Of a stretch of DNA of 64,000 nt, positions 46,058 through 53,401 are shown piece after piece. The notes under the pieces are model-generated. The model had not been told where the DNA came from and searched no databases. It saw only the letters and a program-made list of their open reading frames with translations. Origin of the DNA: Rhizobium sp. SG_E_25_P2 (lineage in GTDB: Bacteria; Pseudomonadota; Alphaproteobacteria; Rhizobiales; Rhizobiaceae); NCBI RefSeq assembly GCF_029892285.1, contig NZ_JARXVM010000007.1, forward strand, positions 1 through 64,000. Direction: 5' to 3'. The translations under genes and the position numbers were made by a program. The first letter of the stretch is position 1. Each line of letters begins with the position of its first letter.

Positions 46058-46543
46058 ATGGCCTCCGGAGCGGGGTGATTCGCGGCTTCAGGAACATAAG
46101 TGGAACGAGTTTTATTTTCAAACACGCTTTTATGGTAGCGACATCAATCCGTTGCGCGCGAACCAAGCAAAATGCGCAATCTTTGTGCGATTTTTTAGTT
46201 GACTCCAAAAGTCATGTTAGTTTAGTTAACCCGCAGAGGTTGAGCCAGCCAAATTCGAACGCCGATGCTTCCCAGGAAGCCAGCGACGCGTTCATACGCC
46301 AGCGAGCCTATCCGTCATAGTGCAGTTCCTGCTTTGCGTCGCGGCCCGCCGCGCGTGAAAGCGCGTCGACGCGCCGGCGCCCGAAAGGGATCGCCAGTGC
46401 GAACGGAGGGTTTTTGTGTCTATATTACAGATATTTACGGACCACGGCGTCGGGCCGGATCAATGCGAGCCGAGACAATTCCGCTGTCGGCTCCGCACGG
46501 AAGCGAAAGCCGAGCAATTTAAAAACACCAAGGAGATATGACT
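46058..46543. other. Intergenic region between the MFS gene and the HasA-RTX cluster
   Basis: About 480 bp. It holds the iron box at 46200-46214, with TTGACT at 46199-46204 as a possible -35 element reading toward the HasA-RTX genes. TTTAGTTGAC and TTTAGTTAAC form a loose direct repeat around it. A leader of about 300 nt would follow. It is GC-rich in the middle (about 46330-46400) and ends with a good RBS. I see no gene in it. Confidence 0.55.
46200..46214. promoter_or_regulatory. Iron-responsive operator (RirA type, TGA-N9-TCA)
   Basis: TGACTCCAAAAGTCA matches the rhizobial IRO consensus TGA-N9-TCA exactly, and its inner bases are close to palindromic. It overlaps a TTGACT -35-like element, fitting repression by RirA when iron is plentiful. 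Consensus is from established knowledge; binding here is inferred. Confidence 0.65.
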
Positions 46544-47425
46544 ATGGTCACTGCGACAGTGAACAACACGTCGGGCGTCAACTTCAACTACGGCGCTAGC
46601 AACTATCTCGACACGGTCGGCGACGGCTTCAATTCGGCCACCGGCCAGTTCGGCTATTTCAACGTGGCTCCGTCGTCCACGGGCGCTTACATCGGCGCAA
46701 CCGAATATTCGATCGCCACCGCCGACAATGACGGCGACGGCGTCTATGACGACGGCTCCGCCTGGATCGTCAACGGCAACTTCAACTATAGCCGCGGCGC
46801 CTTCACCGGCACCGTCGATTCGCTGGCCTTCGGCACCGGCCTCAGCGGCATCACCGCCGCCGGCACCGGCTATTCGTCCTCCGACGTCTCGCTCGTCTCC
46901 AGTGACGTAACGTTCACCAATCTCAACATGAGCGGCGCGGACGCGACCACCGTGCTCTACGGCCTGATGAACGGCGAAGAGGCAGCGCTGGAGACATGGC
47001 TCTCCAACAACGCCGTCACCTTCAACGGCGGCGCGGGCGCCGACGCCTATCAGGGCGGCAGCCAGGCCGACACGCTGAACGGCCTTGCCGGCGCCGACAC
47101 CCTGGCCGGCGGCGGCGGCGCGGATGCGCTGACCGGCGGCGCAGGCAATGACACCTTCGTCTTCGCCGCAGTCTCCGACAGCACCGTGAGCGCGTTTGAC
47201 ACGATCAGCGACTTCAGCGCGTCCACCCTGGGCAACAGGGACGTTCTGGATGTCAGCGCGCTCGGCCTGAGCGGCGGCTATAGCGGCTCCACCGCCGCCG
47301 CCGACAGCCTGTGGTACAGCAGCGGCAAGTTCTACGCCGACACCGATGGCGACGCTGCGGCCGACCTCGCCGTGGCGGCAACGGTTTCCGGCACACTATC
47401 CGCGAGCAATTTCGACTTCGCGTGA
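46544..47425 (+). CDS. HasA-like hemophore domain fused to RTX repeats (first of three)
   Basis: A 293-residue protein. Residues 1 to about 158 resemble the hemophore HasA: an early beta-rich part, GNFNYS with the tyrosine (about residue 82) at the place of heme ligand Tyr75, then GTVDSLAFGTGLSG, DVTFTNLNM and VLYGLMNGEEAALE, which parallel HasA segments in the same order. The His32 loop is shorter and lacks histidine. After this come RTX repeats (GGSQADTLNGLAGADTLAGG, GGADALTGGAGNDTFVF), a DTISDF segment and the tail SNFDFA for type I secretion. The ATG at 46544 is 8 nt after AGGAG; the ATG at 46538 is only 2 nt from it. An RirA-type box lies upstream and a strong terminator downstream. The HasA call is from recalled sequences. 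Confidence 0.72.
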   Translation: MVTATVNNTSGVNFNYGASNYLDTVGDGFNSATGQFGYFNVAPSSTGAYIGATEYSIATADNDGDGVYDDGSAWIVNGNFNYSRGAFTGTVDSLAFGTGLSGITAAGTGYSSSDVSLVSSDVTFTNLNMSGADATTVLYGLMNGEEAALETWLSNNAVTFNGGAGADAYQGGSQADTLNGLAGADTLAGGGGADALTGGAGNDTFVFAAVSDSTVSAFDTISDFSASTLGNRDVLDVSALGLSGGYSGSTAAADSLWYSSGKFYADTDGDAAADLAVAATVSGTLSASNFDFA

Positions 47426-47439
47426 GTTGGCTACGAACA

Positions 47440-47471
47440 GAGGCGCGGGATTTCCCGCGCCTCACTTTTTT
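47440..47471 (+). terminator. Intrinsic terminator inside the HasA-RTX cluster
   Basis: GAGGCGCGGG-attt-CCCGCGCCTC (10-bp stem) followed by ACTTTTTTC, 14 bp after the first HasA-RTX gene. It would make the first gene the most abundant transcript unless read-through feeds the other two. Confidence 0.9.
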
Positions 47472-47512
47472 CAATTGCATTCAAGACGTCTACAGACGCA
47501 TGGGAGTTTCCG

Positions 47513-49945
47513 ATGGCCATCATCGCCGAAGGCGCCAATTTCAGCATTAGCACAGACGACGACATGATCTGGGGAGAAACGCTCGCCGCAGGCACGGTCC
47601 TTTCGTTGACGGTGACAGCGGACTTCGCTCTCGGCGCGCTCATCATCGCCGGGAATTCTGGCGCCACAGGCGCTGCCGTCGGCAACAGCTTCAGCTATGT
47701 CTACAATGGACAGACCTACACCTACGAAGAAGTCGTCAACGCCGGTTATCTTGCGCTAAATGGCGAAACTTCGGTAACGATCCAGCTCATCGTTGAAGAA
47801 GACTTCGACCTGTCGTCTCTCGACGCGCTCAATTTAACCCTCACGGTCGCCGATACCACATTCGAGATTGTTGAGGATGCGAGCTTTGATATCACCGTCA
47901 ACGAAGCGCCCGAGGATATTGCCCTCTCCGCCTCCTCCGTGGATGAAACCGCCGCAATCGACACGATCATCGGCGCCCTTTCCGCCACCGATGCCGAAGG
48001 CGATGCGCTGACCTATACGCTTGAAGACGACGCCAATGGTCTGTTCAAGCTGGTGACGACCAATGGCGTGACCTCCGTGGCGCTCAATGGCAGCCTGGAA
48101 GACTCCGACGCTACATCCTATGACATTGTCGTCAACGTGTCGGACGGCGAAAACAATGTTGAGCAGACCTTCACGATCGACGTCGCCCAGAACACCGCCC
48201 CCACCGACATCGCCATTTCCAACGCCACGATGAAGGAATCCGCCCGCGTCGGCTTCGTGGTTGGCACGCTTTCGGCCACCGACGCCGAGGGCGATGCGAT
48301 CACCTGGTCGCTGGAAAGCGGCCAGGGCGACAATGATGACAAATTCAGCCTGGTCGAAAATGACGACGGAACGGTCAGCGTCGTGCTCAAGTCGACGTTG
48401 GATGTGGAACTCCCCGGTGAAACCTACGATCTGGTGGTGACGGCAACGGATTCCAACGGCGCAGCGACCACCGAGACCATCACAATCACCGCTGAAGACG
48501 AATATTTCAAGCTCAGCTCCTCGCCGACCGGCTATAACTATCTCTCCGTCACCGAAGCGGCGGAGAAAGGCCAGGAACTCGGCTATGTGATGAAGTTCGA
48601 CGCCTCCTTCGTCCCGGTCAGCGCCGAACTCACTGATGACGCCGATGGCGCCTTCTCGCTCAAGACCCGCGTGGTCGATGGCGAGACCCGCTATTATCTC
48701 GTCACCAACACGGCGCTCGATTACGAAAAGCAGGACAGCTATTCCGTCACCATCGAAGTCGCGAACGCCGAAGGCGAGACCCAGGAAAAGACCTTCGAAG
48801 TGCAGGTGCTCGACGCTGCAGAGACGGGCGACACCGCGCGCGGCAACATCACCATCGACGCCAATACGCTCACTGCCAGCGAAAATGGCGGTGTCAACTG
48901 GAACACCTATCTCGACGATTACTGGGCTGATCTGGGTTACGCGATCCCGAACTTCTCTCCCTCCGGCACCGGCGGGAGCCTCGAAAATGCCTCGTCGGCC
49001 TTCTATTACAGCAATGGCGTCTCGGCGCTCTCCATGGAGGGAGAGCTGGCCTATATCTGGAACGACCCTGTAACCGGCGAGGATGTGCATGTCGTGGCCG
49101 GCACGATTACCGATCTCGTCTTCGGCGAAGGGTCCTACACCGACGGCGTGACCGACGCTGAAGTGTCGATCAGCGGCCTCGACCTCGAAAGCGGCACGAC
49201 GCCGGACAATCGCCTCTCCGGCGAGGTCAATCTCGTCGCCTCCGCCTTCATGCACGGCCCCGACGAGGCGACGCCGGCGGAATTCGCCTATGTCAAGGCG
49301 CTGCTCGCCTCCTACGCCCAGACCTTCCTCGGCTCCTCGGGCGCCGACACCTATACCGGCACGATCTTCGGCGACACGGTGAAGGGCAATGGCGGCAATG
49401 ACACGTTCAAGGGCGGCGCCGGCAATGACGCGCTGACCGGCGGCGCCGGCGACGACAAGCTCTACGGCCAGACGGGCGTCGACAAACTGAACGGCGGCGC
49501 GGGCGGCGATCTCCTGCAGGGCGCGGCGGGCAATGACACGCTCGCAGGCGGCGCCGGCAACGACACGCTGCAGGGCGGCGATGGCGTCGACCAACTGACC
49601 GGCGGCGCGGGCGCCGACAAGCTCACCGGCGGCAAGGGCGCGGATATGTTCATCTTCTCCGCCGTCTCGGACTCCGCCGGCAAGACCTATGACACGATCT
49701 ACGACTTCGCCGCCGCTGACACGATCGACCTCTCGGCCATCGACGCCAACAGCAAGAAGAACGGCAACCAGGCCTTCTCCTTCATCGGCAATGAGGACTT
49801 CTCGAACCACGCCGGCGAGTTGCGCTTCGAAAAGGTCAAGGGCGACACGATCATCGAAGCCGACCGCAATGGCGACGGCAAGGCCGACTTCATCCTGCAC
49901 TTGGATGACGCCATGACCATGAAGGCGGCCTATTTCGACCTTTGA
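47513..49945 (+). CDS. Large RTX protein with cadherin-like domains and an internal HasA-like domain
   Basis: An 810-residue secreted-type protein in four parts. Residues 1 to about 130 are beta-rich and unrecognised. About 130-440 are three cadherin-like repeats (ALSATDAEGDALTYTLED, TLSATDAEGDAITWSLES, then a diverged one). About 443-605 resemble HasA: WNTYLDDYWADLGYAI like the HasA DYLGQW start, then GELAYIW with a tyrosine in the ligand position, HVVAGTITDLVFGEG and AEVSISGLDLESG. About 606-710 are RTX repeats (GNGGNDTFKGGAGNDALTGG), ending in a peptidase M10 C-type tail and AAYFDL. Probably a longer, surface-reaching hemophore or adhesin. RBS GGGAG before ATG. Second of three tandem genes. 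Confidence 0.7.
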   Translation: MAIIAEGANFSISTDDDMIWGETLAAGTVLSLTVTADFALGALIIAGNSGATGAAVGNSFSYVYNGQTYTYEEVVNAGYLALNGETSVTIQLIVEEDFDLSSLDALNLTLTVADTTFEIVEDASFDITVNEAPEDIALSASSVDETAAIDTIIGALSATDAEGDALTYTLEDDANGLFKLVTTNGVTSVALNGSLEDSDATSYDIVVNVSDGENNVEQTFTIDVAQNTAPTDIAISNATMKESARVGFVVGTLSATDAEGDAITWSLESGQGDNDDKFSLVENDDGTVSVVLKSTLDVELPGETYDLVVTATDSNGAATTETITITAEDEYFKLSSSPTGYNYLSVTEAAEKGQELGYVMKFDASFVPVSAELTDDADGAFSLKTRVVDGETRYYLVTNTALDYEKQDSYSVTIEVANAEGETQEKTFEVQVLDAAETGDTARGNITIDANTLTASENGGVNWNTYLDDYWADLGYAIPNFSPSGTGGSLENASSAFYYSNGVSALSMEGELAYIWNDPVTGEDVHVVAGTITDLVFGEGSYTDGVTDAEVSISGLDLESGTTPDNRLSGEVNLVASAFMHGPDEATPAEFAYVKALLASYAQTFLGSSGADTYTGTIFGDTVKGNGGNDTFKGGAGNDALTGGAGDDKLYGQTGVDKLNGGAGGDLLQGAAGNDTLAGGAGNDTLQGGDGVDQLTGGAGADKLTGGKGADMFIFSAVSDSAGKTYDTIYDFAAADTIDLSAIDANSKKNGNQAFSFIGNEDFSNHAGELRFEKVKGDTIIEADRNGDGKADFILHLDDAMTMKAAYFDL

Positions 49946-50009
49946 TCCCAACACGACCCGGCGGCGGGCCGCGCCCGCCGCCCAACAATCCTGATCAGGA
50001 GACGAGATC

Positions 50010-50996
50010 ATGGCGATTGCCATCACGGTCGGCTCATCCGCCGGCGTCAATGTGAATGTCGGATCGAGCGGCTATTTTTCCACGCTGCCGGCGATGTTCG
50101 ATCTGCAGAACATGAATTTCGGCTATTTCTACAACAATATGAACAGCGCCTCGGAATATGGCCTGGCCGAAACCAAGGAAGACACGGCCTTTACCGGCGG
50201 CGCGGCGATGAAGGCCACCGGCAATCTCAGCTACAGTCTCACCACGCATAACGTGACCGGACGGCTGGACACGGTCGCCTTCGGCGCCGAACTCGAGGGC
50301 GTGACCGCCGGCTATGGCACGACTTCCACCAAGATGAGCCTCGGGACCACCGATCTCACCTTCAAGAATCTCGGCCTCGACGCCGCTGACGGCGACGCCG
50401 TGCATGAGATTCTCTACGGCCTGATGACCGGCGACGCTTCCGACTTTCTCGCTTATCTCAAGACCCAATCCGTCAACTTTACCGGCGGCGCCGGGTCCGA
50501 CAGCTATCAGGGCGGCGGCAAGGCCGATACGCTGTCCGGCTTGGGCGGCAAGGACACGCTGATCGGCGGCGGCGGCAACGACACGCTGATCGGCGGCGTG
50601 GGCGCCGATCAGCTGACAGGCGGCGCCGGCAAGGATAGCCTCACAGGCGGCGGCGGCGCGGACAACCTGACCGGCGGCGCAGGCGCCGACAGCTTCGTGT
50701 TCAAGGCGCTGAGCGACTCGCGCGGCGCGTCATTCGACACGATCACCGACTTCTCGGCTTCATCAGGCGATCGGATCAATCTTTCGGCCATCGACGCAAA
50801 TTCCACCAGCGCCAAGAACCAGAGCTTCGATTTCATCGGCACAGCGGCGTTTTCCGGCGACGCCGGCGAATTGCGCACTGTGAAATCCTCGACGGGCACG
50901 GATGTCTATGCCGACACGAATGGCGACAAGACTGCCGATTTCGCCCTGCATTTCGACGATTCCCTGACGCTCAAGGCCTCATATTTCGATCTGTGA
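50010..50996 (+). CDS. HasA-like hemophore domain fused to RTX repeats (third of three)
   Basis: A 328-residue protein with the clearest HasA similarity. Residues 1-158: GNLSYSL places a tyrosine at position 75, the same number as HasA heme ligand Tyr75; TTHNVTGRLDTVAFGAELEG follows with His80 near HasA His83; then DLTFKNLGLD and AVHEILYGLMTGDASDF match HasA VVHQVVYGLMSGD. The position of HasA His32 (FGDVNH) reads FGYFYN, with no histidine. RTX repeats (GLGGKDTLIGGGGNDTLIGG onward) occupy about 160-235, then a DTITDF segment and the ending ASYFDL. RBS AGGAG with 8-nt spacing. It lies 64 bp after the second gene, with no terminator between. Confidence 0.75.
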   Translation: MAIAITVGSSAGVNVNVGSSGYFSTLPAMFDLQNMNFGYFYNNMNSASEYGLAETKEDTAFTGGAAMKATGNLSYSLTTHNVTGRLDTVAFGAELEGVTAGYGTTSTKMSLGTTDLTFKNLGLDAADGDAVHEILYGLMTGDASDFLAYLKTQSVNFTGGAGSDSYQGGGKADTLSGLGGKDTLIGGGGNDTLIGGVGADQLTGGAGKDSLTGGGGADNLTGGAGADSFVFKALSDSRGASFDTITDFSASSGDRINLSAIDANSTSAKNQSFDFIGTAAFSGDAGELRTVKSSTGTDVYADTNGDKTADFALHFDDSLTLKASYFDL

Positions 50997-52087: not shown

Positions 52088-53401
52088 TCAAAGATCGAAA
52101 TTCGCCGCGACGGGATCGTGGCCGTTGGCCAGCCGGACCCGAAAATCGGCGAGTTTGTCGCCATCGAGATCCGCCTCGACGAAAACCACGTCAGCTTGAC
52201 GCCGAAGACGGATTTCGCCGGAATCGCCACTGAAGCCCTTGTCTCCGACGAATGTCAGATCGCGATCGATGTCTGAACCGAACGCGGTGAAGTCCAATAC
52301 GTCCCGCGTTCCGAAATCGGTGATTATGTCGGCGGCGGCCATCTTGGCCGACGACCCCGAGGCCTTGAAAACAAAAATATCCGCCCCGCTTCCGCCGGAA
52401 AGCCTGTCCTGGCCGCGTCCGCCCTGCAGCGTATCGCCGCCGCCAAGCCCGCTCAGCGTGTTGGCCAGACCATTGCCGATGAGAATATCGGCCTTGGACC
52501 CGCCGGTCGCCTTTTCAATCGAGACGCCATTGGCGATGGTGTAGCCGCCGGTGAGCGTTTCGGAGGTGGACACCCAGCCGCCGCCGCCGATTTCCGCCTT
52601 CAGCGTCGCCGCCCGGAGATCGATTTTCGCGCGGCTTGATCCGACATAACGGATTTCATCGACGCCGCCCGTATCCCAGATCGTCGTATAGCCATTGTTG
52701 AAATCCACGTCATCGCTGAAGCGGTAGACGGTGTCGGCGGCGTTATGCGCGGTCTTCCCATACATATATTGAAGAGCGGCGATATCGATCGCGCCGAAGG
52801 ACCCCGGCTGCGCGTTCAATTCCGCGCCGACATCCACCGCGACCGTGAATGGATTGTCTTCGCCGAGATAGGGTGTGGTGTAGCCCATGACGGTGGAGAT
52901 CTGCGAGTTGATCTCACCGGTTCCATGGCTGGCGGGATCGTCGACGCCGGGCATGGCGGGGCCCGTTTCCGTATCATGAGGATGCTTGAAGCCGAGCGCA
53001 TGCCCGAACTCATGGATCCAGGTGAGGGAAAACGTGCCGAGTTTCACCGCGTCGGCAGCCCCCGCGACATCGCTGTTGATGCCGACGCTGGAGGTAACCG
53101 AGGTGGCGCCGGGCCCCGGCACGCCAGACTCGCCGCCGCCGCCCTCAAACAGCAGGAAATTGATGTTGCCGGACGATGCGACTTCGGTGAAACGCAGTTT
53201 GGTGAAGCTTTCGACATTGTCGAGGATCTGCCGGTAGAACGGCTTCCAATCGCCCTCGTCCATATCCGGGACACCGTTCGAATTGATGTCGCTGGCCCCG
53301 AAACTATAGGTCAGCTTGGTCTTGCTCCACGCCGCGCCGTTGAGCAGTCCGTCAATGACAGCGTTTCCGGATAGGGCGACGACTTTGTAGGGATCCGCCA
53401 T
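52088..53401 (-). CDS. Serralysin-like secreted metalloprotease (M10B) with RTX repeats
   Basis: A 437-residue metzincin. The catalytic zinc motif is TWIHEFGHALGFKHPH (His130, Glu131, His134, His140), and the Met-turn is STVMGYT (Met172) with a downstream tyrosine. AAIDIAALQYMYG is the usual serralysin segment after it. RTX repeats (ANTLSGLGGGDTLQGGRGQD) begin at about 305, followed by a peptidase M10 C-terminal domain and ANFDL. No Sec signal and no long propeptide, so type I secretion is expected. It shares its last 75 residues in pattern with the HasA-RTX proteins, suggesting a common exporter. Serralysins can degrade hemoproteins. Confidence 0.92.
   Translation of the reverse strand: MADPYKVVALSGNAVIDGLLNGAAWSKTKLTYSFGASDINSNGVPDMDEGDWKPFYRQILDNVESFTKLRFTEVASSGNINFLLFEGGGGESGVPGPGATSVTSSVGINSDVAGAADAVKLGTFSLTWIHEFGHALGFKHPHDTETGPAMPGVDDPASHGTGEINSQISTVMGYTTPYLGEDNPFTVAVDVGAELNAQPGSFGAIDIAALQYMYGKTAHNAADTVYRFSDDVDFNNGYTTIWDTGGVDEIRYVGSSRAKIDLRAATLKAEIGGGGWVSTSETLTGGYTIANGVSIEKATGGSKADILIGNGLANTLSGLGGGDTLQGGRGQDRLSGGSGADIFVFKASGSSAKMAAADIITDFGTRDVLDFTAFGSDIDRDLTFVGDKGFSGDSGEIRLRRQADVVFVEADLDGDKLADFRVRLANGHDPVAANFDL

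Follow-up and report, generated by a model that had tools for sequence, protein, structure and literature searches.

Candidate hemophores in a Rhizobium gene cluster: HasA-type domains joined to RTX repeats

Introduction

What would a HasA-type hemophore domain be doing on a protein with RTX calcium-binding repeats? The question arises from a stretch of Rhizobium sp. SG_E_25_P2 DNA, the first 64,000 nucleotides of contig NZ_JARXVM010000007.1 (the window). An earlier note on this stretch described three consecutive genes, here called A, B and C, whose products join a HasA-like segment to an RTX block, and interpreted them as hemophores of an unusual design, known HasA proteins being devoid of RTX repeats. 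In the excerpts of the open literature on hemophores and HasA that were searched, we found no account of HasA-RTX fusions as a class. We analysed the domains, their heme-ligand positions, their relatives and the genes and promoter elements around them.

Results

Layout of the cluster

Open reading frames on the forward strand place A, B and C one after the other as the earlier note had them (Table 1). The products have 293-295, 810 and 328 residues, respectively, and are free of cysteine, with pI values of 4.05-4.18. The HasA-type domain is N-terminal in A and C, and occupies residues 444-608 of B, behind a cadherin-like region. The C-terminal tail of A resembles those of type I secretion substrates. 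The start of A chosen in the earlier note is preferred here as well, because the ATG at 46538, which would give a longer protein, is missing in the aligned sequence of the relative Rhizobium sp. FKL33, and because the spacing to the AAGGAG ribosome-binding site is good only from 46544. A terminator-like hairpin separates A from B. Such sites number five in the region against 4.8 in shuffled sequence; as a guess, the hairpin may set the ratio of the products and make A the most abundant.

The order A-B-C is kept in FKL33 and in Rhizobium sp. G21, whose C domains are 99% and 86% identical to that of the window, and also, at another place, in the genome G005, where B has 1816 residues. The middle part of gene C of G21 (L039:8393-9376) is out of frame, perhaps as a sequencing artefact. 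The window also holds a gene for a serralysin-like metalloprotease ending in NFDL (B and C end in YFDL). This gene is found near the cluster in FKL33 as well, and was not found in the G21 and G005 loci. It might, as a guess, release heme from hemoproteins.

Table 1. Positions of the features discussed (window coordinates unless a contig or locus is named).
Feature	Position	Strand	Description
Promoter-like element	46199..46218	+	TTGAC-N8-TCATGTT; contains TGA-N9-TCA (46200-46214)
Leader of gene A	46219..46537		about 320 bases, conserved
Ribosome-binding site of gene A	46530..46535	+	AAGGAG; upstream alignment of relatives
Gene A	46544..47425	+	HasA domain ~46544-47032; short RTX block ~47024-47170; C-terminal tail ending FDFA
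Tyr75-equivalent codon, gene A	46787..46789	+	alignment; His83-equivalent absent
Terminator-like hairpin between A and B	47440..47463	+	10 pairs, then T run; consensus scan only
Gene B	47513..49945	+	cadherin-like region ~47933-48808; internal HasA-type domain 48842-49336
Gene B, 3' part		+	long RTX block ~49313-49747; tail ending AYFDL
Tyr75-equivalent codon, gene B	49052..49054	+	His83-equivalent codon 49088-49090
Gene C	50010..50996	+	HasA domain 50010-50489; RTX block ~50481-50705; tail ending SYFDL
Tyr75 codon, gene C	50232..50234	+	His83-equivalent is His80 of C, codon 50247-50249
Serralysin-like metalloprotease gene	52088..53401	-	HEFGHALGFKH motif; RTX block
Gene D	C1:126218-127195 (L111:6218-7195)		HasA-RTX; convergent to HmuV-U-T-S
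Gene E	contig C17 (L152:8832-10316)		HasA-RTX; 494 aa

HasA and RTX identity of the three proteins

The Pfam profile for HasA (PF06438, cut-off 26.3 bits) matched gene C (8.8e-14, 52.1 bits) and the isolated domain of A (6.9e-8, 32.8 bits) above the cut-off. In a six-frame search of the genome A reached 29.7 bits, and the full-length protein was not listed in a scan of whole proteins. B gave no match, either as a whole protein or as an isolated domain. The profile comparison that the earlier note had proposed thus came out for C and for the A domain but not for B. The four HasA-order motifs that it quoted are present in A and C, and in B as the looser GELAY, GTITDLVFG, EVSISGL and FMHG. B was connected to HasA by a profile of seven B-type domains. 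Among 177,635 distinct PDB sequences its matches below an E-value of 0.01 were two HasA chains only (0.0034 and 0.0035), both of them redesigned Serratia HasA, and the third match was an adhesin at 0.66. Aligned with four canonical HasA proteins, the B-type profile gave 76% and an E-value of 2.2e-5 over 53 columns in hhalign.

For C, a phmmer search of the PDB with its domain alone returned 18 sequences up to an E-value of 0.1, all of them HasA (best 1.9e-11), and its predicted model superposed on HasA in a structure aligner, in agreement with a HasA fold. The model of the B domain failed (pLDDT 34). RTX repeats were found in all three proteins, with PF00353 scores of 35.7 (A), 98.4 (B) and 58.1 bits (C) over a cut-off of 23. 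At the level of sequence, these results confirm that A, B and C carry a HasA-type domain joined to RTX. SMc04171 (NF046115) was considered as a known HasA-RTX protein and rejected: scores were 24.8-110.3 bits against a cut-off of 625, mostly covering mainly the RTX part.

Spread of RTX-fused HasA

The Pfam model found HasA in six of 61 relatives, in 15 of 397 genomes of the window's order (12 of them over the cut-off), in one of 385 of the class, the window's own, and in six of 398 of the phylum: the window's genome itself, another from the same family, and four from beyond the class. The latter four are canonical HasA proteins of 205-228 residues, and in the genomes searched canonical HasA was seen only outside Alphaproteobacteria. 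With a wider profile, built from 22 fused domains and one canonical domain, the count in the order rose from 15 to at least 25 of 397 genomes at E-values up to 1e-6, all matches lying in open frames of at least 254 residues; PF06438 misses RTX-fused domains such as those of B and of genes D and E, described below. The wider search scored up to nine candidates per genome, which makes its counts lower bounds.

In all, 61 HasA-domain genes, with 72 domains, were read in 43 of 46 loci, 42 from the window's order (Hyphomicrobiales, going by the names of FKL33, G21 and Shinella) or from Shinella and one from a Rhodobacterales plasmid. Two genomes with matches in the Pfam search (G019 and G204) had no HasA gene over threshold in the loci read, one of which lies at a contig end (L041, L079). 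A strict RTX repeat is present in 57 of the 61 genes; in three others the repeats, judged by eye, are degenerate, and the remaining one is the frame-broken gene C of G21. The shortest of the 61 proteins has 258 residues. The longest forms are strings of domains: 3698 residues with four HasA domains, 2049 with three and 1262 with two. A Shinella sp. HZN7 protein annotated as 'cadherin domain-containing protein' combines two HasA domains with 20 strict RTX repeats. The fusion is therefore not unique to this genome. The statement of the earlier note that known HasA lacks RTX repeats agrees with a passage of the review PMC8277102, but the Alphaproteobacteria examined here do not bear it out. In a domain tree with midpoint root, the four canonical HasA domains group together (95/90), and their group is nested within one of the two large fused-domain sets. 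With the root placed by midpoint, RTX loss and RTX gain are both possible.

Heme-ligand residues

If these domains are hemophores, are the heme ligands retained? The comparison was made on 75 aligned domains, of which 71 are RTX-fused and four canonical; short fragments had been dropped from the set, as had gene C of G21 with its broken frame. Tyr75 is kept in all 71 fused domains, including A, B and C, and in all four canonical ones, with the qualification that the fused domains were gathered with a profile, which favours sequences keeping its conserved positions. Only two columns are invariant, and Tyr75 is one of them; His83 comes next at 95%, equal with a Gly. His83 is kept in the four canonical domains and in 67 of the 71 fused ones, the exceptions being three gene A orthologues and gene E. 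It is present in B and C. Replacement of Tyr75 or His83 in HasAp reportedly affects hemin uptake minimally, according to the title of a study, so that the conservation of these residues is support rather than proof.

The His32 position falls in a gap in all 71 fused domains, where the loop is absent. In the canonical rows His occupies this column in two of four cases in the 75-row alignment, and in four of four when the canonical proteins are aligned by themselves. Heme is bound via His32 and Tyr75 in Serratia HasA and via Tyr75 alone in Yersinia pestis HasA, as stated in an excerpt of PMC9627568. The loss of His32 is thus no argument against heme binding.

Further HasA-RTX and heme genes in the window's genome

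Two more HasA-RTX genes were found in the same genome. Gene D, missed by Pfam, occupies the same place at HmuV-U-T-S in all seven of the nine genus members that were examined; G359, of the same family, lacks it there. Gene E keeps the Tyr and has no His83. A 342-residue RTX protein of Pararhizobium qamdonense plasmid p4 (L112:8001-9029), a 'calcium-binding protein' with 34% identity to D along its entire length, was tried as a relative of D and set aside, the HasA profile rejecting it and Val standing where Tyr75 is expected; it is possibly a relative of D that has lost the heme ligand.

The genome encodes a TonB-hemin receptor on contig C8, HmuS on contig C1, and three PrtD/HlyD pairs on contigs C20, C23 and C1. 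Identity between the C20 ATPase and those of two has-type loci is 44% and 46%. No match to heme oxygenase was found in the seven genus members and G359, so HmuS would have to serve instead. A search for a dedicated HasR-like receptor gave the C8 receptor as best match, at 30% identity. Receptors scoring like C8 also occur in three genus members with no Pfam HasA match (G001, G003, G007), so that C8 is a candidate partner, though not necessarily a dedicated one. A FecI-FecR-receptor locus on contig C25 was rejected as a partner: it contains a siderophore-interacting-protein gene and looks like siderophore uptake.

A shared promoter element

Upstream of A lies a promoter-like element, TTGAC-N8-TCATGTT, which contains TGA-N9-TCA, the consensus of the RirA iron-responsive operator according to excerpts of PMC8822346 and PMC6386902. 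Its distance from the start of A, about 345 bases, implies a long leader. The leader is conserved, the whole upstream region having 82% mean column identity, and Rfam gave no match at the gathering threshold between 45900 and 51200. The element is identical in FKL33 and G21, and a similar one precedes A', the non-syntenic gene A of G005. At up to one mismatch it is the only match in the window (0.13 expected; 13 of 100 shuffles had one). The plain TGA-N9-TCA box was rejected as evidence in its own right. It occurs 20 times in the window against 12 expected, within 400 bases of 28 of 160 genes and within 100 bases of six of 165, and also before the PrtD genes of C20 and C23. Since the plain box is too common, the longer element was relied on, with controls.

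Across 334 kb of genus sequence there are 11 copies of TTGAC-N8-TCATG, always upstream of a HasA-RTX gene or of the C8 heme receptor: before A in three orthologues, before A' of G005, before D in five of seven genomes, before E (about 206 bases upstream) and before the C8 receptor. Simulated sequences gave a mean of 0.6 and a maximum of 2 in 30 runs, permuted motifs a mean of 0.4 and a maximum of 3 in 60, and ten other spacings from 4 to 14 gave 0-5 occurrences. The motif was derived in hindsight from A and D, and HasA or heme genes were the reason for including most of the 334 kb; the independent part of this result is the finds before E, the C8 receptor and A'. Plain boxes precede D at -34 to -38 in six of seven genomes and at -60 to -66 in five, with both in four (the start of D was moved by 13 codons in G004 and G005), and another lies between hmuS and a tonB-like gene. 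B and C have no box within 400 bases upstream. A, D, E and the C8 receptor thus share, at the sequence level, a promoter element with a candidate RirA box, which suggests that RirA may control all four.

Gene neighbourhoods of the relatives

A gene for a TonB receptor, heme oxygenase or HmuTUV lies within 5 kb in 29 of the 43 HasA-RTX loci, or in 22 of 36 without the seven gene D loci, which had been fetched for hmuS. The remaining 14 have no heme gene near, and several of these stop at or near a contig end. Counted by genome, neighbourhoods were read in 21 of the 25 genomes detected with the wider profile, and in every one of the 21 a heme gene lies no more than 5 kb from at least one HasA-RTX gene; four genomes with weak matches (G272, G336, G402, G405) stand outside this count.

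Several arrangements recur. Sigma factor and FecR, receptor, HasA-RTX and heme oxygenase follow one another in three genomes (G206, G178, G288). The pattern of receptor, HasA-RTX and heme oxygenase is seen with FecR only in G112, and without the sigma factor/FecR pair in five more (G410, G271, G362, G251, G398). In six genomes of one family (G100, G195, G219, G242, G262, G281) a receptor lies between two HasA-RTX genes. In G051 the order is HmuTUV, a two-domain HasA-RTX gene, receptor, HasA-RTX and heme oxygenase, and in G156 receptor, PrtD and HlyD genes adjoin two HasA-RTX genes. Whole has-type operons, in the order sigma factor, FecR, receptor, HasA with RTX tail, type I ATPase and HlyD, are found on two Shinella plasmids (Shinella sp. 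H4-D48 and S. zoogloeoides) and on one Pseudosulfitobacter plasmid. On the Shinella sp. H4-D48 and Pseudosulfitobacter pseudonitzschiae plasmids RefSeq names the RTX-tailed gene 'heme acquisition protein HasA'. Nine of the 22 neighbouring receptors and the lone C8 receptor were compared with NCBIfam, and all ten exceeded the TonB-hemin cut-off (TIGR01785, 316.85), with 345-516 bits.

Discussion

Taken together, the domain make-up, the conserved ligands, the neighbourhoods of relatives and the shared promoter element argue for the hemophore interpretation of the earlier note. It is probable, in our judgement, that A, B and C are secreted, calcium-folded hemophores of an alphaproteobacterial HasA subfamily with C-terminal RTX that supply a TonB heme receptor. 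When iron is short, a repressor of the RirA type would leave the box before gene A, and the proteins, still unfolded, would be exported by a type I secretion system of the PrtD/HlyD kind whose genes lie elsewhere. Outside the cell, calcium would fold the RTX block and the HasA domain would fold along with it. The domain would then take up heme, with Tyr75 binding the iron axially and, in B and C, the His83 equivalent assisting it; as the His32 loop of Serratia HasA is missing, binding may follow the one-ligand mode reported for Y. pestis HasA. The loaded protein would pass its heme to a TonB heme receptor, for which C8 is the best candidate in this genome, HmuTUV would import it, and HmuS would handle it in the cytosol. 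Heme binding, secretion route, delivery, receptor pairing and RirA control are what we infer from sequence comparison for A-B-C.

Could the three proteins have kept the HasA fold but turned to a different role, for instance in adhesion at the surface or in building a matrix, with D, beside hmuTUV, as the true hemophore? In the window, FKL33, G21 and G005, A-B-C has no receptor, heme oxygenase or secretion gene within 5 kb; A has lost His83; B carries cadherin repeats, and B-type domains recur in giant proteins of G005, G195 and G242. A (for want of His83) and B (a distant member with cadherin-like repeats) are indeed the weakest candidates, and another use of the fold is possible for them. Against this stand the retention of Tyr75 in all three and of His83 in B and C, the promoter element that A shares with D, E and the C8 receptor, even in G005 with its cluster elsewhere, and the two-domain HasA-RTX protein of G051, with 618 residues, which lies inside a heme operon. 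We regard this alternative as rather unlikely.

It is considerably less likely still that heme is bound for storage, detoxification or surface signalling instead of delivery, with the multi-domain forms acting as a heme sponge. The giant secreted-type proteins at L067:7576-18672 and L068:3470-13529, which have between two and four HasA domains together with 10-16 strict RTX repeats, would fit a sponge, and no heme gene was found in their flanks as read, one flank of each being shorter than 5 kb; a FecI/FecR pair adjoins several relatives. Uptake is favoured instead by the iron-box type of control and by the proximity of receptor, heme oxygenase and HmuTUV genes. Finally, that the likeness to HasA arose by chance, from secreted sequences rich in glycine and aspartate, can practically be dismissed: the shared motifs are short and RTX tails are of low complexity, but the A domain exceeds the Pfam cut-off without its RTX part, and for C, where the PDB matches are all HasA and the model superposes, chance is already refuted, as it is by profile for A.

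As relatives in other bacteria are often linked to heme-uptake genes, the fusion looks like a widespread, little-described variant of a known heme-scavenging protein, and it points to the scavenging of heme through secreted proteins in Rhizobiaceae and their kin. It would also give a likely function to vaguely annotated proteins such as the cadherin-named one of Shinella sp. HZN7. It is tempting to speculate further that the RTX-fused HasA proteins make up a separate class of hemophores across Alphaproteobacteria, with single-domain members in has operons at one end and, at the other, giant strings of as many as four domains. In this class calcium-triggered folding would replace SecB dependence and heme would be held via Tyr(-His) only, canonical HasA being a branch that lost the RTX tail. 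We put this forward tentatively, as somewhat short of an even chance. If true, loss of RTX would explain why canonical HasA is an odd type I substrate. The fusion makes it directly testable whether folding of the RTX block does away with the need for SecB, and which form is older.

How do these proteins compare with known systems? HasA, RTX substrates and has operons are already known, and automatic annotation extends the HasA name to some RTX-tailed proteins. In the has operon the genes are HasI-HasS-HasR-HasA-HasD-HasE, and this gene order recurs in the plasmid loci of Shinella sp. H4-D48, S. zoogloeoides and Pseudosulfitobacter. Those operons are complete, whereas in the window the hemophore genes stand alone, with the receptor and PrtD/HlyD pairs elsewhere. 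With serralysin-type RTX proteins (PF00353, PF08548), A-B-C share nonapeptide repeats, the lack of cysteine and the low pI range, but there the cargo is a protease and here it is HasA-like. A filamentous haemagglutinin with a hasA-like domain has been predicted in a single genome paper on Dechloromonas aromatica (PMC2907700), the available excerpt of which mentions no RTX block, unlike A-B-C. According to an excerpt of PMC8277102, HasA has no RTX domain and its productive secretion needs SecB. An RTX block may, on our reading, remove this need. The HasA proteins of Serratia, Pseudomonas and Yersinia (PF06438) are small stand-alone domains. A, B and C resemble them in domain fold, in Tyr75 and mostly in His83, and presumably in type I secretion and iron-linked expression; they differ in the RTX block, the missing His32 loop and the number of paralogues, and fused relatives also have tandem domains in one chain. 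Being larger and RTX-bearing, A, B and C are best described as a variant of HasA rather than as plain members of the family.
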